25,674 nucleotides of DNA, taken from the IMG/VR virus record IMGVR_UViG_3300033149_002371, positions 1 to 25,674 of that record, one strand, 5' to 3'. The stretch comes from a virus. The notes under the pieces are model-generated. The model ran no database searches. It was not told the DNA's origin and worked only from the letters and a program-made list of their open reading frames with translations. The position numbers and the translations under genes were made by a program. Shown here piece after piece: positions 12,358-24,730 of this stretch; within the stretch, counting starts at the first letter, position 1; each line of letters starts with the position of its first letter.

Positions 12358-13296
12358 ATGCCAGGTAATGAACAAGATCCACAATCAGTAATCCAGCCAA
12401 CCGACACGGAAGCGGGCGCGATAGCTCCGGCCGCCATCGATCCCGGCGCCATCGATCCCGGCGCCATCGATCCCTGCGCCATCGATCCCGGCGCCATCGA
12501 TCCAGCCGGCACAGATCCAGCCGGCACAGATCCAGCCGGCACAGATCCAGCCGGCACAGATCCAGCCGGCACAGATCCAGCCGGCACAGATCCCGGCGCC
12601 ATAGATCCCGCCGCCATCGATCCCGGCGCGCCAGCGGGTGAGGAGGGCCAAGCCGTCCCTCATAGCCGATTTAATCAGGTTTATTATCAAAAAAAGCAGC
12701 TGGAAAAGGAGGTTGAGCAGTTAAAGGCCCAACAGCAGGACAAAGCAGTAGAACGCCAGGTGATGCAGGCCCAAGAGGGTAAGCCCAAGCTGGAAGACTT
12801 TGATTATGATGATGAGAAATTCCAGGATGCCCTGGTTGATTTCAAGTTGGATCAGCGCGACAAGGTACGCCAGCAGCAGCAAGTAAACCAGCAACAAGAA
12901 AAGAGCCTAACAGCCTTTAAAGACAAACAAGCGCCATACATGCAAGCTAACCCAGGTTATCAGCAGTTAACCCAGGCGGCGGATGCGGCGGGCGTTATCT
13001 TTGAGGAGAAATTGGCCGGGGTGATCCTTAAGAGTGAGGCGGGATTGCAGATACACCACCACCTATTGGCCAACCCGGAAAAGCTGGAGCGTTTTAATAA
13101 CGGTAACTTTGCGGACACAATGCGGGAGATCATCCAGTTGGAGAGCAATTTTAAGCCCGGCAAGCGCAAAACCAGCGCCCCGGCGCCTATCCAGCCGGGT
13201 AACGGTGGCGGCGGTATAGCGCCAGTGCCTAACGGCGCAACATTAAGCCCTGATGCCTACTACAAGCAACGGATGGCCGAAAAAAAGGCCCGTTAA
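12358..13296 (+). CDS. Scaffolding protein, P22 gp8-like
   Basis: Scaffold directs coat assembly into proheads and then leaves. The 312-residue length is close to P22 gp8 (303). Evidence is position (between portal and coat), strongly helical and polar content, and architecture. Residues 20-90 are a low-complexity run of pentapeptides (GAIDP/AGTDP). Residues 103-200 are Gln/Lys/Glu-rich helix (YYQKKQLEKEVEQLKAQQQD). The basic end (YYKQRMAEKKAR) fits the positively charged C-terminal hairpin by which gp8 binds coat. No sequence signature alone would prove the call. In P22, portal-scaffold-coat are contiguous; here fibre genes lie before it and an accessory module after it. Confidence 0.75.
   Translation: MPGNEQDPQSVIQPTDTEAGAIAPAAIDPGAIDPGAIDPCAIDPGAIDPAGTDPAGTDPAGTDPAGTDPAGTDPAGTDPGAIDPAAIDPGAPAGEEGQAVPHSRFNQVYYQKKQLEKEVEQLKAQQQDKAVERQVMQAQEGKPKLEDFDYDDEKFQDALVDFKLDQRDKVRQQQQVNQQQEKSLTAFKDKQAPYMQANPGYQQLTQAADAAGVIFEEKLAGVILKSEAGLQIHHHLLANPEKLERFNNGNFADTMREIIQLESNFKPGKRKTSAPAPIQPGNGGGGIAPVPNGATLSPDAYYKQRMAEKKAR
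12427..12621 (+). repeat. Thirteen 15-bp tandem repeats inside the scaffold gene
   Basis: Five units of the type CCCGGCGCCATCGAT (12427-12501, slightly varied) are followed by six identical units CCAGCCGGCACAGAT (12502-12591) and two more of the first type (12592-12621). They encode in-frame pentapeptides (G/A-A-I-D-P and A-G-T-D-P). One first-type unit (12472-12486) has T for G and gives a cysteine. Identity of the six central copies implies recent expansion by slippage or unequal exchange. Confidence 0.95.
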
Positions 13297-13859
13297 GCAA
13301 CTAGGGCTTCCAGGGCGGCAATCTGAGCGCGTTTAATGTTGCGCTCTATTTTGTCGATCAGGGTCGCTTGTGTGTCGAGTTCGGCGGCGTCCGTTTCGGC
13401 GTTTTGATCCCAGCCGTCCGGCCTAATAATGGCCAGCCAGCCCCAGGTTATCTCCTGGTGGTCCTTAGTGATTTCCCGGCATTCTGTTAGCGCCGCCTCT
13501 ATGGTGGCGTCTATCGTGTTGATCTGTACGCCTTTGGCCTGGTATGAGGCGCTTTCTAGGTCGCACTGTTTGCCATTGTCGCAATAGGAAAAGGCCACCA
13601 CTTGCCAATTCCATAGCCGTTCGGTGATCTCTTTGCTGATTAGCTCATAATTTGCGTCTAGCATAGCAATAGCGCGCCCGGCCCCGTTTATCTGGGTATT
13701 GGGTACGCCGCCCGCATCATTGCCCAACAGGTCACAATAAAAAATAGTTGTCCCTGGCATCATGGCGCGGAGCGTTTTGATGTAGCGGCTATGGGCAAGG
13801 TCTAAGCCCTTGCGGGCTTTGCGGGGTTTCTTTTGTTTGCGGGCCGTCCCTTTTGGCAT
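13293..13859 (-). CDS. Hypothetical protein (188 aa), last gene of leftward operon
   Basis: The product starts with a very basic stretch (MPKGTARKQKKPRKARKG), which could bind nucleic acid. A mixed alpha/beta domain follows, with PGTTIFYCDLLGNDAGG, a cysteine pair at YCDNGKQCDLE and a tryptophan-rich ITWGWLAIIRPDGWD. The end is helical (LIDKIERNIKRAQIAALEAL). I recognise no family. AAGGAAAA precedes the start. The gene is convergent with the scaffold gene: both stops use the same TTAA at 13293-13296, leaving no intergenic base. It closes a run of seven leftward genes. Confidence 0.65.
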   Translation of the reverse strand: MPKGTARKQKKPRKARKGLDLAHSRYIKTLRAMMPGTTIFYCDLLGNDAGGVPNTQINGAGRAIAMLDANYELISKEITERLWNWQVVAFSYCDNGKQCDLESASYQAKGVQINTIDATIEAALTECREITKDHQEITWGWLAIIRPDGWDQNAETDAAELDTQATLIDKIERNIKRAQIAALEALVA

Positions 13860-13872
13860 TGTCGTGTTTTCC

Positions 13873-14163
13873 TTAGTGGTTGGCCAGCTGAGTCTCTAGC
13901 CTGGCTATTTCGTTATTGGCTGCATCGATAAGCTTGTTGGCGGTAGTCTTTGTCTTTTTCAGCTCCTTCTCCAGCTCACTTATGCGGTCAAGTGCTCGAC
14001 TGGCAACATCAATACAGCAAATTTCAGCGAAGCCTTCTCCGCCGCCTGCATACTCATAAGCAACATCAAATACAGGGTTGTCGAGGTCTTCCGGCGTGTA
14101 GCTGGCCAAGGTTTCAAGCTGATAGGTAAGGTTTTCGTTTGGCGTCATAACTTGATCTGACAT
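13873..14163 (-). CDS. Hypothetical coiled-coil protein (96 aa)
   Basis: The product has an acidic N-terminal half (YTPEDLDNPVFDVAYEYAGG, then FAEICCIDVASRALDR) and a C-terminal coiled coil of about 40 residues (ISELEKELKKTKTTANKLID, ARLETQL). The start is preceded by AAGGAAAAC, the same upstream block (TGTTTTCCTTA on the plus strand) as the next gene in the operon, suggesting copied expression signals. No family was recognised. The gap to the downstream gene is only 13 bases. Confidence 0.6.
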   Translation of the reverse strand: MSDQVMTPNENLTYQLETLASYTPEDLDNPVFDVAYEYAGGGEGFAEICCIDVASRALDRISELEKELKKTKTTANKLIDAANNEIARLETQLANH

Positions 14164-14287
14164 TGAAATGTTTTCCTTAAAAGTGGCCCTTCATTTTCAC
14201 GCTATAGCCGAAAACAAAGTGCAAGGTGTGATTAAAACCCCGAAAAGCGGGCGGCAGATACCGGCGCCGCTGGCTTCTCAGGAAAAT

Positions 14288-14545
14288 TCAAACGGGCGTG
14301 GTTACTTCGTGTTTCTTGCAGATTTCATCGAACTCATTTTTCTCGATGATCTCAGTTTGAGTTAGTTTCACCTCAATTCGCGGGCCACTTTGGCACTTGA
14401 CTAGGTAGTGTTCGTATTCGCCGTCTTGGCGGCACATTTGCTCGTCAACGACTATTGCAGAATCGAGAATTGATAGCAGTTGCTGTGCTTGCTCAATGTT
14501 TTTCAGTGCGTACATTTTGTGTCCAATTTCAGCTGTAATTGTCAT
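14288..14545 (-). CDS. Hypothetical protein (85 aa) in leftward operon
   Basis: The product is small, acidic and soluble: an N-terminal helix (NIEQAQQLLSILDSAIVVDE), then a beta-strand pair (YEHYLVKCQSGPRIEVKLTQ) and a charged helical end. GAGAGC precedes the ATG as a weak ribosome site. The 124 bases to the downstream gene hold no gene that I can support. Function is unknown; its setting suggests an accessory or host-interaction gene rather than virion structure. Confidence 0.6.
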   Translation of the reverse strand: MTITAEIGHKMYALKNIEQAQQLLSILDSAIVVDEQMCRQDGEYEHYLVKCQSGPRIEVKLTQTEIIEKNEFDEICKKHEVTTPV

Positions 14546-14602
14546 GTTTCTGCTCTCTAAGTTAGGTAGTTAAAGGGTTGTAAGGAAAATTCACTAAACT
14601 AA

Positions 14603-14955
14603 TTAGATGCCTACCAGGATGCTGGGCGGCCGGGCTAATTCTTTATCAGTTGGCCGCCATAGGTGTAAGCAGTTCGGGTGATTGTTTATATATTCACTTT
14701 CTGGCGGGTGATATTGCACGACGCAATCTTCCGGCCCCCAAAACTTTGCTTTAAAGGCGCACATTTCTTGCCAGGTTGGTACCGTGCAGCTGGAAACGCT
14801 AACATGCTCCCAACCCTCCCCGTCCGAGGCAATAACGGCCATTCTCTGCCCTTCAACATCAAATAGGAATAGGCCATTGTTTCCGTCTTGACTACAAGAG
14901 GCCAAGAGGCCAAGGGGCCCTCAGTTACTCTGTTTTCCTCGGGTACTTTAAACAT
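14603..14955 (-). pseudogene. DUF7694-type phage protein, broken by an 8-bp duplication
   Basis: The C-terminal part, read from about 14905, contains MAVIASDGEGWEHVSVSSCT, then PTWQEMCAFKAKFWG and VVQYHPPESEYINNHPNCLH followed by LWRP. I recognise this as the DUF7694 family of small phage proteins of unknown function. The expected N-terminus, MFKVPEENRVTEGPLAS from the ATG at 14955, lies in another frame. The sequence at the joint is a tandem repeat of AAGAGGCC (14896-14911). Removing one copy restores one continuous 114-residue frame, ...EGPLASCSQDGNNGLF..., a normal length for the family. A TTG at 14905 could start a truncated protein. The ATG overlaps the stop of the upstream micro-gene. 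Confidence 0.75.
14896..14914. repeat. Frame-breaking 8-bp tandem duplication
   Basis: AAGAGGCC stands twice (14896-14903 and 14904-14911) and AAG of a third copy follows. The extra eight bases shift the reading frame of the DUF7694-type gene. Such short tandem copies arise by polymerase slippage; in a draft genome an assembly or read error is also possible. Confidence 0.85.
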
Positions 14956-15046
14956 TGTGTTTAGCTCTTGGTTTGCGCCTATGACCCTCAATAAATTGGC
15001 CGCCTTTGGTGAGATCGCCGCAACCGCAATTGCAGACGCGCGCCAT
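14948..15046 (-). CDS. 32-residue zinc-binding micro-protein
   Basis: An ATG at 15046, one base after the stop of the upstream gene (TAAAATG), opens a 32-residue frame with CNCGCGDLTKGGQFIEGHRR and a lysine/arginine-rich end. The 'C.CGCG.....GG.F..GH' pattern is known from small phage zinc-binding proteins. The stop overlaps the ATG of the DUF7694-type gene by eight bases. The operon packing and the cysteine/histidine motif are the evidence; the length is at the limit of what can be called. Confidence 0.6.
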   Translation of the reverse strand: MARVCNCGCGDLTKGGQFIEGHRRKPRAKHNV

Positions 15047-15047
15047 T

Positions 15048-15260
15048 TTACTGGGTGGGCGTTTGTGTTGTGCTGTTGGTTTTTTCCTGATTTTCGATAG
15101 CATTGCCGTCCTCCTTTTCTGTTAGCTGTTTAATCAGTGCATCGATCTCCGGCTTGTGGATCGGGTCTATCCAGCGTTGCAGCAATACTAACCCCTTTTG
15201 CTTTTGCCGGGCGGCGTAGTTCTTTTGTTTGGCGTATTTGTTGGCGTCCATTTTTGGCAT
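15048..15260 (-). CDS. Small basic hypothetical protein (70 aa)
   Basis: The ATG at 15260 is preferred over the TTG at 15278 because it lies one base after the stop of the upstream gene. The product has a basic N-terminal half (MDANKYAKQKNYAARQKQKG), then LVLLQRWIDPIHKPEIDALI and a polar Gln/Thr-rich tail. The 'strand then helix with E...L...L' part faintly resembles small ribbon-helix-helix-like phage proteins, but the match is too weak to name. It is tightly packed with its neighbours, so it is cotranscribed. Confidence 0.6.
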   Translation of the reverse strand: MPKMDANKYAKQKNYAARQKQKGLVLLQRWIDPIHKPEIDALIKQLTEKEDGNAIENQEKTNSTTQTPTQ

Positions 15261-15261
15261 C

Positions 15262-15456
15262 TTATTTATCCAGGTCAAAGGTTAGCCAATAGGTTATTCC
15301 AAAAGGGACGCAAATAAGCATTACGGCGGGGATACGCCCAAAAATTATAGCTATCACAACTAGAGGGAGCCAAAAGGCGGAAACTATAGCAATACTAGCC
15401 GCCAGGCTAAGAAGGAAAAAAGGTAAATTCCATAACCATTTTAGAAAGTAAATCAT
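15262..15456 (-). CDS. Small two-span membrane protein, first gene of leftward operon
   Basis: The 64-residue product is mostly hydrophobic: one span at about residues 11-30 (LPFFLLSLAASIAIVSAFWL) with a possible re-entrant continuation, and one at about 36-58 (FGRIPAVMLICVPFGITYWL), ending in the acidic FDLDK. GGCGGA lies seven bases before the ATG. Size and topology are holin-like, but no endolysin gene is nearby, so I do not call it a holin. Superinfection exclusion is another possibility for a phage membrane protein outside the virion genes. Confidence 0.65.
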   Translation of the reverse strand: MIYFLKWLWNLPFFLLSLAASIAIVSAFWLPLVVIAIIFGRIPAVMLICVPFGITYWLTFDLDK

Positions 15457-15484
15457 AATATCCGCCTTTGGTTTGTTGTTCCAG

Positions 15485-15535
15485 TGGTATACATATTACC
15501 AGAATCCCCCGCGCTGTATAGGTACTATGTATACC
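15485..15535. promoter_or_regulatory. Operator-like inverted repeats in the divergent control region
   Basis: GGTATACAT at 15486-15494 is perfectly inverted as ATGTATACC at 15527-15535. The left copy also sits in a TGGTA...TACCA palindrome (15485-15501). The region lies between the leftward and rightward accessory genes, and a ribbon-helix-helix-like protein is encoded in the rightward set. Binding by that protein is inferred. Confidence 0.55.
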
Positions 15536-15570
15536 GATAAGACATAAGGAGGCGCCAAAGGTGTGTTATT

Positions 15571-15579
15571 TGTTATAAT
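15571..15579 (+). promoter_or_regulatory. Extended -10 promoter for the rightward accessory genes
   Basis: TGTTATAAT is a perfect extended -10 element; no good -35 box is present, as is usual for this class. It lies 57 bases before the ATG at 15637. TATAATA (15574-15580) and TATTATA (15585-15591) form an inverted repeat over the -10 box, so a repressor binding there would block transcription. Confidence 0.6.
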
Positions 15580-15636
15580 ATAGTTATTATATTAAATGGG
15601 TGGTATTGTTGATTTCTAATATGGTTGAGGTGATTT

Positions 15637-15825
15637 ATGGTTGAGCAAGAATTGGCAAAGGTAGCGGCGGAAACTGCGTTGTTATCGGCTAATACTTTTG
15701 AGGTGTATGCAACCACCTATATGGCTATAGGTGGTTTTATTGGTGCGCTGTTTGTGGCCTTGATCGCTCTAGGGGTTAAGGTTTACGAACTAAACCAAAA
15801 GTTAAAGGGTGCGGGAGATGAATAA
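15637..15825 (+). CDS. Small single-span membrane protein
   Basis: The 62-residue product has a polar helical N-terminus (MVEQELAKVAAETALLSANT), one transmembrane helix at about residues 31-48 (AIGGFIGALFVALIALGV), and a charged coiled tail (KVYELNQKLKGAGDE). GAGGTGA precedes the ATG at a good distance. This layout recalls small phage membrane proteins such as class-III-like holins or spanin partners, but no lysin lies nearby. It is the first gene after the extended -10 promoter and overlaps the next gene by eight bases. Confidence 0.65.
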   Translation: MVEQELAKVAAETALLSANTFEVYATTYMAIGGFIGALFVALIALGVKVYELNQKLKGAGDE

Positions 15826-15997
15826 AAACCCAGTAGGGCGCCCCGTTTTAACCAGTGGCGCCAACAGAAAGACGGGTAAGTCTGTTTGCTTGCCTGCTTA
15901 TATATGGGACTGGATGGAAGCTCAGGAGCTAGGGCGGTCCGATTTGGTGGCTAAAGCCTTAACGGCTCAATTCGATATTAAAAAGCCGGAGGCGTGA
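15818..15997 (+). CDS. Ribbon-helix-helix-like DNA-binding regulator (59 aa)
   Basis: The ATG at 15818 is preferred over the GTG at 15809; it overlaps the upstream stop (ATGAATAA). The product begins NPVGRPVLTSGANRKTGKSV with a GRP basic arm, then a short strand (KSVCLP) and two helices (AYIWDWMEAQEL, then RSDLVAKALTAQFDI). This is the basic arm-strand-helix-helix plan of ribbon-helix-helix repressors. Such proteins bind palindromes as dimers. The inverted repeats in the control region upstream are obvious candidate operators, giving autoregulation. The call rests on architecture, not on a strong family match. Confidence 0.6.
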   Translation: MNKNPVGRPVLTSGANRKTGKSVCLPAYIWDWMEAQELGRSDLVAKALTAQFDIKKPEA

Positions 15998-16001
15998 GGG
16001 T

Positions 16002-16808
16002 ATGGGGCGTATCATTTGGAATAAAGAGCTTGTTTTTAAACGGGCGGCCGATTTTGAAACGCGGACTAAGTTTGCGCGCGGCGCGTCTGGTGCTTATGAC
16101 AAAGCGTGGAAAAATGGGTGGCTTAATGAGTTGGATGATGTTTTTGGTGCCCCAGTTTGTCCTGGAAGTTTAAATCGAGTTTGGACTCTTGAAAAAATTT
16201 TGCTAGTAGCAAAAAAATACTCTTCGCGTAAGGCGTTTGCTATTTCTGTTGATAGTGCGGCATATGGTGCTGCCCAAAAAATGGGCGCCCTTAGTGTGAT
16301 TGGTGCGGTGTTTGGCGAAAAAATAAAAAGTAGCCATTCCTGGGAGTTAACATTGGCTGAGAGTTTGTTGCTTGCTAAACAGTATAAATATAGGTCTGAT
16401 TTTAAGGATGGCTCGCCAGGTGCTTACAAGCGCGTAAGCAGTGCTAAATTAATGGATGATGCATGTGATCATATGCCAAATCACAGAAATGGTTTTGATG
16501 ATGATGCGGTATATATTTGGTGCGCCAAAGGTGAGAGATTTAAAAATAAATGCATTTTCAAGGTTGGCGTTACGTCCGTAAGGCTTGGGAGTTGGCGCGT
16601 AGGCAATTGTTCCAATAAAACACCCTTTTCCTCTGAGTTGGTTATATTACGCGCCACAAATGGGCGGGCAACTATAGTTGAGAGATTGTTGTTAGGTATT
16701 GGCTCTGACCCTGGATTGTCGGGTTTCGATGGCGCGACAGAATTTAGGGCAATGAACGATGAGGAGTTGGCGGAGGCCGTGGAGTTGATCGGTAAACACG
16801 CGATGTAA
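16002..16808 (+). CDS. GIY-YIG-like (T5orf172/MUG113 type) nuclease with N-terminal repeats
   Basis: The C-terminal domain (about residues 168-262) has VYIWCAKG, then FKVGVTSVRLGSWR, a later glutamate in IVERLLLG (E227) and GFDGATEFRAM. This matches the T5orf172/MUG113 branch of GIY-YIG nucleases: Y171, the K-V-G-V-T strand at 187-191, R199 and E227 as likely active-site residues. The N-terminal half holds three repeats of about 45 residues (6-49, 61-105, 114-158), each W.....L..AK.Y..R..F......AY..A, which resemble DNA-recognition repeats of mobile nucleases. It is probably a homing-type endonuclease. Its DNA is more AT-rich than the virion genes. A strong terminator follows. Confidence 0.7.
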   Translation: MGRIIWNKELVFKRAADFETRTKFARGASGAYDKAWKNGWLNELDDVFGAPVCPGSLNRVWTLEKILLVAKKYSSRKAFAISVDSAAYGAAQKMGALSVIGAVFGEKIKSSHSWELTLAESLLLAKQYKYRSDFKDGSPGAYKRVSSAKLMDDACDHMPNHRNGFDDDAVYIWCAKGERFKNKCIFKVGVTSVRLGSWRVGNCSNKTPFSSELVILRATNGRATIVERLLLGIGSDPGLSGFDGATEFRAMNDEELAEAVELIGKHAM

Positions 16809-16839
16809 TCCCAAGGGTGTAATAATAAAAGACGAATAG

Positions 16840-16878
16840 AGCGCCAATCCCTAAAAAGGGGTTGGCGCTATTTTTTTT
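16840..16878 (+). terminator. Strong rho-independent terminator
   Basis: AGCGCCAATCCC and GGGGTTGGCGCT pair around TAAAAA with a single G-T wobble, and ATTTTTTTT follows. It ends the rightward accessory transcript 31 bases after the nuclease stop and separates it from the coat gene. The coat gene therefore needs its own promoter or antitermination. Confidence 0.9.
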
Positions 16879-16879
16879 A

Positions 16880-17061
16880 TAGGTCTATATTCGAGGTTAA
16901 TCAGCGCAAGCTGTATAGGTGTAAGCCGTCCCCAGCGGCTATATATCGGGGCTCAGAATCCCGGTACTAAGGTCCTCTGCTATTCAACCGCCGCAGGTTG
17001 TAAAAAAGCGAATTTATCGGCCATAAGGCCACAATTCTTTTTTTAATAGCAGGGAACCAAC
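16880..17061 (+). promoter_or_regulatory. Structured leader of the major coat gene
   Basis: CTGCTATT (16977-16984) pairs with AATAGCAG (17045-17052). The stem extends by one U-G and one C-G pair, so it takes in the ribosome site AGGG at 17051-17054. Inside are two hairpins: CAACC-GCCGCA-GGTTG (16985-17000), and GAATT...GGCC-ATAA-GGCC...AATTC (17010-17037). Together they form a three-way junction. Upstream, AGCCG/CGGCT (16924-16940) and further G/C-rich arms give more possible pairing. Nothing here codes for protein. Translational control of coat is the inferred role. No clear promoter was found. Confidence 0.55.
17010..17044 (+). terminator. Attenuator-like hairpin with U-tract in coat leader
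   Basis: The hairpin GAATT-GGCC/GGCC-AATTC is followed at once by seven T residues, as in an intrinsic terminator, only 17 bases before the coat ATG. The stem is interrupted by an internal loop, so termination would be weak or conditional. Confidence 0.4.
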
Positions 17062-18315
17062 ATGGCTAATACATTAATTACCTCCTCAATTATTCTCAAT
17101 GAATCACTCCTAGAACTCAAAAATAATATGGTTTTGGGTGAGCTGGTTGATAAACAGTACTCCGGGGAATTCTCCGGTCAAGCCCTAAAGCGCGGCCAAT
17201 CGGTGCGCGTGCGTCGCCGTGTTAATTTTATGGCCACCAACGTTTATGGTGCTGATGGTGATATGACGGGCAATGTGTCCGATATCGTGGAAGGTTCCGC
17301 CGAGATCAAGCTAGAAAATCAAGACTCAGTGGTGTTTGAAGTATCTAGCCAAGATTTGACCCTTGATATTTCTGATTTCAGTGAGCGCTATATTCGTCCG
17401 GCAATGATCGAGATTGCGCAGAAGTGCGAAACCGCCATAGCCCGCGAATTTCAAAAAGCGCCATGGCTTAAAACGGGCGGCGTCTCTGATTTCCAAAGCA
17501 TTGCCAGTATGGATGCTATTTTGGATGACTACGGCGTGCCAATGATGGATCGTTGCTGTGTGATCACGCCTGTAATGATGGTCCAGTTGGCGGCCATCTT
17601 AACCACTGTTTTTCCCACTGAGATTGCCAGCCGGGCGATTGAGCGCGCGTTGGTTACTACCCTGGGCAACTTCCCAATTTACAAATTCCAATCAGCGGTT
17701 AACCATACCAATGGCGCCTTTGCGGGTTCGCTGGTTGTCGATGGCGCCGCGCAGGAAGTTGTTTATTCGGACGTTAAAGACAACGACTACTTAAGCCAAA
17801 CCTTTAATATTGGTGGCCTAACGGCAACCACGGGCACATTCAACAGCGGTGATACTTTCACCATCGTGGATGTTTACCAAGTGAACCATCGTACTCGCGA
17901 GGCAACCAGCCGTTTGCAAATGTTCACTGTCCTTGCGGATATTACGGCGGACGGCTCGGGTGATGTGGCGGCATTGATTAGCCCGGCAATCATTACAACT
18001 GGCGCTTATAAAACGTGCGATATCGTCGGTGGCACTGTCCCGGATGCGGCGGTTATTACTGTCACAAGTGGTGTGGCTGGCGCGCGTTCGCGTGAAGGTA
18101 TGGCGTTTCACAAGCAGGCGTTGACCCTGGCAACCGCCGATATGGAAGCATTCAAGGGCGGCGTCGATAACTCAACGGGCGCGCTGGATGGTTATTCTAT
18201 GCGTGTGGCGATGGATTCGGACGTTTTGCGCGACAAGACTATTTGCCGTTTAGATATGTTGTACGGCGTGCGCTTGCTAGAGTCGCGCGCGGTGGTTCGT
18301 ATCTCTGAGGTTTAA
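17062..18315 (+). CDS. Major capsid (coat) protein, P22 gp5-like
   Basis: The coat protein forms the icosahedral shell with the HK97 fold. The 417-residue length is close to P22 gp5 (430). Family features include the N-terminus MANTLITSSIILNESLLELK, then VDKQYSGEF..., the long-helix region SERYIRPAMIEIAQKCETAI, and near the end MAFHKQALTLATADMEAF followed by GYSMRVAMDSDVLRDKTICR and LDMLYG, all typical of P22-type coats. The middle part (about 220-330) would hold the inserted domain. The ATG follows AGGGA at six bases; that site lies in a sequestering stem. Its own terminator follows. Normally scaffold lies directly upstream; here 3.7 kb intervenes. Confidence 0.93.
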   Translation: MANTLITSSIILNESLLELKNNMVLGELVDKQYSGEFSGQALKRGQSVRVRRRVNFMATNVYGADGDMTGNVSDIVEGSAEIKLENQDSVVFEVSSQDLTLDISDFSERYIRPAMIEIAQKCETAIAREFQKAPWLKTGGVSDFQSIASMDAILDDYGVPMMDRCCVITPVMMVQLAAILTTVFPTEIASRAIERALVTTLGNFPIYKFQSAVNHTNGAFAGSLVVDGAAQEVVYSDVKDNDYLSQTFNIGGLTATTGTFNSGDTFTIVDVYQVNHRTREATSRLQMFTVLADITADGSGDVAALISPAIITTGAYKTCDIVGGTVPDAAVITVTSGVAGARSREGMAFHKQALTLATADMEAFKGGVDNSTGALDGYSMRVAMDSDVLRDKTICRLDMLYGVRLLESRAVVRISEV

Positions 18316-18330
18316 TTCTAAACCTTAATT

Positions 18331-18357
18331 AAGGCCCCCAAATATGGGGGCCTTTCT
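18331..18357 (+). terminator. Rho-independent terminator after coat gene
   Basis: AAGGCCCCC-AAATAT-GGGGGCCTT is a perfect nine-pair stem, followed by a short T-rich stretch (TCTATT). It would lower expression of the tail genes relative to coat. Confidence 0.8.
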
Positions 18358-23324: not shown

Positions 23325-23705
23325 ATGGGTTTTGTCAAAAGCATGATGGGCGGCGGCGGTGATGATGAGGCCGCCAAGAAAGCCGCAAAGGAGGCTGAGA
23401 AGTTGGAGCGCCAGGCGGTTCTGGATCAGCAGGCAGCGGATGAGCAGGCAATGATTGATGAGCGCCAAGCGCAGATCCAAATGGCCGCCCAACAGCCCGC
23501 CCCGGCGCAATCTTTAGGCGGCGGCATGTTGCCCAGCCTTGGCGCTGTAAACGTTGCCGGAGGTTTGGCCGCCCCTGGTGAAGTTCGCAGCGGCACCAAT
23601 TTATACGCTATCGAGGGGGCCCCAAGTCGGGCTCAGTCTATGCAAATTAATCAGGGGCAATTGCAAGCCCCCGGCGGTTTACGACCTTACAGAGGGATCT
23701 ACTAA
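23325..23705 (+). CDS. Small ejection-region virion protein (126 aa)
   Basis: ATG at 23325 is chosen because GGGG lies seven bases upstream and it sits one base after the gp14-like stop. The N-terminus MGFVKSMMGGGGDDEAA is followed by an alanine/lysine/glutamine coiled coil (AAKKAAKEAEKLERQAVLDQ, IDERQAQIQMAAQQ) and a glycine/proline-rich flexible half. Its start resembles that of the next protein (MGFIRKTMG). The stop shares a base with the next ATG (TAATG). Its position fits a DNA-transfer or internal virion protein, but no family was recognised. Confidence 0.65.
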   Translation: MGFVKSMMGGGGDDEAAKKAAKEAEKLERQAVLDQQAADEQAMIDERQAQIQMAAQQPAPAQSLGGGMLPSLGAVNVAGGLAAPGEVRSGTNLYAIEGAPSRAQSMQINQGQLQAPGGLRPYRGIY

Positions 23706-24730
23706 TGGGCTTTATTCGCAAAACTATGGGGTCCCTCAGTGGTGGCACAAAAAACGCTGAGGATATAGGGCAGGCAACAGACCAGCAGATAAAAATGCAG
23801 CGCGAGGCGATTGCGGCGCAGGAGGACGCTTACGGGGAAATTTTACCCGGCATGGCGCAGTTTATGACCCCTCAGCAGGCGGCGGCGTTTGGGCTCAACA
23901 CTGGCACTCAAGGACCCGCCCCGGATCGGTATTTGAGCGGTGGGGGCGCCCGTCCGCCGGGTATGGGGGGATCATTTGGTGGGTATGGCGGCGGCGGTCG
24001 CCAGGTTAACCCAGCTTATACAGAGTGGCAGGAGCGGAATAGCGGCCCCCAGTATATGGCGCCGGATCAAAATAGCGCCCTAGAACAATTAAGATCAGCA
24101 ACGGGTATTTATGGCAATGAGCGGCAGCAGGAATACTACGACAATTTTACCGAGGACCCAGGCACGCAATTTTTACGCGAGCAAGGCCAGGGCGATATTG
24201 ATAGACAGTTGGCCGCGCGCGGCGGCCTGGGTGGTGGGTCCCGTTTAAAGGCCGTTAGCAAATTTAACCAGGGGTTGGCTAATCAGCAGTTAGATAAGCG
24301 CATGGCGCAACTAGGGAGCCTAGCCCAAACGGATATTGGGATGGCCACGGGTTTGTCTAATTTGCGCACCGGGTTGGGTACGGCTCAGGCCCAAAGTTTG
24401 AGCGATATCGGCACCGCGTTTGCCTCCGGCACTAAGGGCCAAATTGAGGCAACCCAGGCGGGCCGCGAGCATATGTTGGGTGTGGGCAATATGATCGGCT
24501 CCTTCTTTAGTGATAGCGCCCTCAAGGAGAACCTGGAGGAGATCGGGGAGTTTAAGGGCTGCACGCTGTATGTTTGGGATTGGAATGAGGAGGCGGCCAT
24601 TGTTGGCGCTGATGAACAGAGCCCGCTGGGGTGCATTGCCCAGGAGGTCCAAGAGTTGTACCCGGACATGGTGGTGGCCAGTGATACGGGCTACTTAAAA
24701 ATAAAACAGGAGTTTTTCAACAATGCCTAG
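23705..24730 (+). CDS. DNA-ejection protein (gp7/gp20-like) with C-terminal S74-like domain
   Basis: The 341-residue product has a helical N-terminus (DQQIKMQREAIAAQEDAYGE), a glycine-rich middle, and 'DPGTQFLREQGQGDIDRQLA' with 'ARGGLGGGSRLKAVSKFNQG', which I associate with phage DNA-transfer (P22 gp7/gp20-type) proteins. The last 75 residues resemble the Peptidase_S74 intramolecular chaperone: FFSDSALKENLEEIGEFKGC, LYVWDWN, then PLGCIAQEVQELYPDMVVAS and DTGYLKI. The serine and lysine of that family would be S269 and K274. If active it would cleave itself off, but such domains in ejection proteins may be inactive. The next gene overlaps by eight bases. Confidence 0.7.
   Translation: MGFIRKTMGSLSGGTKNAEDIGQATDQQIKMQREAIAAQEDAYGEILPGMAQFMTPQQAAAFGLNTGTQGPAPDRYLSGGGARPPGMGGSFGGYGGGGRQVNPAYTEWQERNSGPQYMAPDQNSALEQLRSATGIYGNERQQEYYDNFTEDPGTQFLREQGQGDIDRQLAARGGLGGGSRLKAVSKFNQGLANQQLDKRMAQLGSLAQTDIGMATGLSNLRTGLGTAQAQSLSDIGTAFASGTKGQIEATQAGREHMLGVGNMIGSFFSDSALKENLEEIGEFKGCTLYVWDWNEEAAIVGADEQSPLGCIAQEVQELYPDMVVASDTGYLKIKQEFFNNA

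Follow-up and report, generated by a model that had tools for sequence, protein, structure and literature searches.

How is coat synthesis controlled in a P22-like phage whose coat gene lies apart from its scaffold gene? Shell and scaffold need balanced synthesis, and the translational setting of this balance in P22-like phages is only partly known. The DNA analyzed here, termed the window, is a 25,674-base virus record with P22-type head genes, encoding the terminase large subunit, portal, scaffold, coat, tail factor and head-closure proteins. Its major coat protein gene (17062–18315, plus strand) belongs to the P22 coat family (PF11651, E 1.3e-44; phrog_283, E 5.9e-62). The 95-nt stretch leading up to the coat ATG is predicted to fold into a stable three-way junction, which may well act as a lid that keeps coat translation off by default; this is the reading that we tentatively prefer. 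We infer that such a lid would lower coat translation in the cell and be opened at the right time. Whether a simple hairpin, as in one clade of relatives, or a three-way junction, as here, a lid on the coat gene would offer a concrete point of control, open to experiment, over the protein that is most abundant in the virion.

Genomic context of the coat gene

In the window, the scaffold stop (13296) and the coat ATG (17062) are 3.77 kb apart, and the gap holds minus-strand genes, two small plus-strand ORFs, a nuclease-like ORF and a strong terminator. By comparison, the spacing from scaffold to coat ranges from −1 to 59 nt among ten annotated phages, including P22 and APSE-1; for 74 loci of metagenomic or prophage origin, the distance from the end of the presumed scaffold ORF to the coat start is −8 to 81 nt. 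Coat lies directly 3′ of scaffold in all relatives checked, and the window is the exception. The homologous coat gene of P22, gene 5, is followed in the P22 record by an annotated putative stem-loop, as the window has a hairpin at that place; unlike in the window, however, the scaffold stop and the coat ATG overlap in P22.

The two genes are separated by a 3.6-kb module (13293–16878) consisting of minus-strand genes of unknown function and the plus-strand nuclease-like ORF. A phage homologue of the minus-strand gene at 13293–13859 was looked for and none was found. The nuclease-like ORF (16002–16808, plus strand, 268 residues) gave a weak phrog endonuclease match and no match in a Pfam search, and it resembles a phage protein annotated as GIY-YIG. 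Judged from its sequence, it is probably a free-standing homing-endonuclease-like gene.

The transcription unit of this ORF is closed by an intrinsic-terminator-like hairpin with T8 (16840–16878, plus strand), the 13-bp stem of which (16840–16869) has a folding energy of −23.6 kcal/mol. A candidate sigma70-type promoter for coat, TTGGCG-18-TATATT (16862–16891, plus strand; expected +1 at about 16898), shares the sequence of its −35 element with the 3′ arm of the terminator. Scored with a sigma70 matrix built from textbook values, this candidate ranks third on the plus strand of the window and is alone among the top few in being intergenic; in a sigma70 consensus scan of the window, the count of sites was not above that of shuffles. 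Another terminator-like hairpin (18331–18354, plus strand, −19.7 kcal/mol) lies 3′ of coat. Being flanked by two strong terminator-like hairpins, with the promoter candidate after the first, coat appears to form a transcription unit of its own. Its putative leader, bounded by the candidate promoter and the start of coat, would be about 164 nt long (16898–17061, plus strand).

This leader was searched for reading frames and contains neither an ATG nor a usable small ORF. A leader peptide was rejected on this ground, and ribosome-coupled opening of a lid on coat is thus unavailable in the window. Toward its 5′ end, RNA folding predicts three plus-strand hairpins: a small one with a GCAA tetraloop (16902–16913), AGCCG/CGGCU (16924–16940) and AUCGGGG/UCCCGGU (16945–16965). 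The GNRA-type tetraloop of the first might provide a tertiary contact.

Predicted structure of the coat leader

The 95-nt segment at 16970–17064 has a folding energy of −33.5 kcal/mol, whereas its shuffles average −17.2 (z −5.85; 0/200 shuffles), in a folding model that leaves out proteins, ribosomes and kinetics. The original prediction had described a ten-pair outer stem with one U-G pair, which is present base for base on the plus strand: its 5′ arm (16975–16984) pairs with its 3′ arm (17045–17054) in the order C-G, U-G, C-G, U-A, G-C, C-G, U-A, A-U, U-A and U-A. The stem is prolonged by GGU at 16971–16973 pairing with ACC at 17056–17058. The predicted fold also bears out that the stem encloses two hairpins and takes in the coat Shine-Dalgarno (SD) AGGG (17051–17054). 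On the plus strand, hairpin 1 (16985–17000, CAACC/GGUUG) has −6.0 kcal/mol alone, and hairpin 2 (about 17002–17044), the base of which is formed by A6 and T7, has −7.6 kcal/mol for its core and −10.3 kcal/mol with the A/U base. Opening the whole 3′ arm of the outer stem costs 15.2 kcal/mol. The mean pair probability of the outer stem is about 0.87 in 95-nt and 700-nt folding contexts alike, and the fold is retained under one alternative energy parameter set.

In a structure scan of the record, the coat-leader fold ranks 25th of 5,117 overlapping windows, and those that outrank it are mainly terminators and a tandem repeat in the scaffold gene. This 15-nt repeat (12367–12658) specifies successive pentapeptides (PGAID, PAGTD) close to the N-terminus of the scaffold protein.

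The expectation that the outer stem would hide the coat SD agrees with this robust pairing: in the predicted fold the AGGG is fully paired and the ATG mostly open. The SD is paired in a stable local helix of the predicted structure, which is the general mark of leaders that sequester a ribosome-binding site (RBS). Opening it costs 10.9 kcal/mol, the highest value among the 22 gene starts of the window examined. Among 1500 shuffled leaders, in which the SD and coat start were held fixed, five close the coat SD equally or more (p about 0.003), and correction for the 22 gene starts brings p to about 0.07. Closure of the SD by chance is therefore unlikely by these folding estimates, though not beyond doubt.

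The structure as a whole could still be incidental and have no regulatory role, for instance as something left over from the insertion between scaffold and coat. The outer stem is known from one sequence, the corrected p is as given above, and another gene start in the window (21252) also has a strongly closed SD (9.5 kcal/mol). Against this stand the z-score of the total fold, its robustness across contexts and a closure that coat translation could hardly ignore. We consider an incidental structure somewhat unlikely.

Hairpin 2 is followed by seven T residues, which had suggested an attenuator, and the hairpins flanking coat indicate that the phage employs such signals. In the MFE fold, however, these residues (17038–17044) pair with A6 (17002–17007) as the base of hairpin 2, leaving no free U tail. 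The core of hairpin 2 is weak compared with the terminator at 16840–16869 (−7.6 vs −23.6 kcal/mol), a competing anti-terminator fold was looked for in growing transcripts of the leader and none was seen, and a leader peptide is absent. Transcription attenuation ending at the seven T's is thus very unlikely, and this part of the original prediction was dropped.

Nor is the stem expected to open with temperature, as had also been proposed. Apart from the buried SD nothing favors an RNA thermometer, and the predicted pair probability of the outer stem hardly falls on heating (0.91 at 15 °C, 0.87 at 37 °C and 0.80 at 60 °C). The melting prediction leaves this reading a negligible probability. An Rfam search of the window returned no match at the gathering threshold, with only sub-threshold matches near the leader; a group I intron remnant, a riboswitch, a thermometer and other Rfam families were accordingly rejected.

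Comparison with known leaders

The leader DNA has no match in phages or plasmids. The best matches of the coat protein are 31%–34% identical, and scans with the portal, head-closure and nuclease-like proteins recovered no relative. Two DNA pattern scans for the leader yielded chance matches only, and the one specific pattern match, in locus L260, falls within an ORF on an unrelated contig. In the literature searched, with most subscription papers outside its scope, no coat-leader element is described in P22-like phages. An RBS-burying leader is in itself of a well-known kind; on the predicted structure, its presence before a coat gene and its three-way form would be new, if it is functional.

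The T4 late genes e and soc have SD-burying leaders (PMC3014915), and RBS-burying leaders are carried by T4 e, soc and 49 as well as by homing endonuclease genes (I-TevI) (PMC3014915, PMC2988022). In these elements an internal late promoter gives rise to mRNA devoid of the 5′ arm, which is translated (PMC3014915, PMC2988022). Similar to these leaders, the window element is a stable helix immediately ahead of a phage gene, with the SD in its 3′ arm and a nuclease-like gene next to it. By analogy, the coat stem might serve as insulation: read-through transcripts containing both arms would be silent, whereas an internal coat promoter would produce translated mRNAs that lack the 5′ arm. The position of the nuclease-like ORF just upstream, with a terminator that may leak, is in line with this reading. 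But in contrast to the T4-type leaders, no good promoter was found inside the window element. The search for a promoter giving transcripts free of the 5′ arm found the best candidate upstream, at 16862–16891, and weaker promoter-like sites inside the element. As transcripts from the best candidate would begin upstream of this arm, at about 16898, they would keep the lid. Moreover, the phage is P22-like rather than T4-like, with the lid on a P22-like coat gene and in the form of a three-way junction. Insulation of the T4 type is thus quite unlikely.

A second precedent is provided by the adhE and lambda cIII leaders, in which the occluded RBS is opened by RNase III (PMC5371410). The window leader resembles them in that its structure occludes the RBS; unlike theirs, its cleavage is hypothetical. 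By analogy, RNase III-type cutting of hairpin 2 or the outer stem may free the SD or stabilize the coat mRNA, so that processing would either be a specific version of the lid explanation or concern only the stability of the mRNA. A long imperfect double strand adjoins the buried SD, which favors such processing, but the helices are short and interrupted. We regard it as unlikely.

Hairpins in the coat leaders of relatives

A simpler SD-enclosing hairpin recurs before the coat genes of one clade of P22-type phages from IMG/VR, named here after locus L138. In this clade, the coat SD is contained in a hairpin of about 28 nt that sits right in front of the ATG, as in GGAGCCAUUCCGAGAAGGAAUAGGCUUC, and further examples are AGCUUAUCCCAAAGGGAUUUAAGCU and CUGCCAAUCCAUAAGGAUUAGGCAG. 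The two-part hairpin lies at 2972–2999 of L138 and has equivalents in L131, L132, L134, L137, L142, L144, L177 and L179–L201; it is conserved in distant P22-type coat genes, and its arms differ yet match. It is a candidate translational operator or element of scaffold-coat coupling. Compared with the window, the gene and the position are the same and the SD likewise lies in the 3′ arm, whereas the clade element is a single two-part hairpin beside the scaffold stop. No SD-enclosing hairpin of this type is predicted in P22, APSE-1 and other named phages.

Of the 24 non-redundant clade leaders, 21 have a hairpin ending at most 6 nt from the start; the same holds for 42/351 control starts (12%) and for 11/54 other coat leaders. 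We further used an alignment-free test of arm pairing, in which the 5′ segment of each leader was paired with its own 3′ segment or with that of another leader. Across 78 coat leaders, the arms pair better within than between leaders (p 4e-5), and control starts show no such difference. Inside the L138 clade the within-leader pairing has p 0.005, and p 0.10 once similar leaders are removed, when 12 remain. By opening energy, the coat SDs of relatives are not more closed than those of control genes (p 0.53), and the notion of a generally tighter closure of coat SDs in relatives, compared with other genes, is not supported on this measure. The signal in relatives is hairpin geometry together with arm pairing, mainly in one clade.

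The window was searched with the covariance model R1 of the clade-A coat SD hairpin and gave no match, at E up to 5 or at 0.001; the two lids are therefore regarded as alike in their would-be action rather than as one family. By analogy, lids at the same position in distant relatives suggest that a lid is useful. Another type of coat leader was observed in L209, L234, L252, L257 and L258, where a G+C-rich hairpin lies just before an exposed SD, as in GCCCCUUCGGGGGCCAGAAGGA.

A putative model for opening of the lid

In the proposed model, the outer stem would take in the coat SD and thereby keep coat translation off by default. In relatives, ribosomes ending scaffold could open the lid on the adjacent coat gene. 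A ribosome finishing scaffold would near or reach their hairpin, which makes translational coupling of scaffold and coat plausible in that arrangement. In the window, an inserted module would have split scaffold from coat, and coat apparently has its own promoter; given both, the lid must open another way. The leading candidates are removal of the 5′ arm through an RNase III-like cut of hairpin 2, and a phage protein acting by binding; the original prediction named the scaffold or coat protein, or a ligand, as potential openers. Possibly the stem is a constant brake and does no more than tune the output of coat. As coat must be made in large amounts, a tight lid would require an opener, and none was found in this analysis.

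A broader version of the model, to which we give little probability, is that P22-type phages repeatedly place a lid on the coat RBS, coupling coat to an adjacent scaffold, and that the window phage carries an elaborate independent switch responding to a trans-acting factor, such as the scaffold or coat protein.

Elsewhere in the window, two 48-nt repeats that are 94% identical lie in tandem at 1905–2000, and the protein encoded at 23705–24730 has a terminal Peptidase_S74 (endosialidase chaperone) domain.
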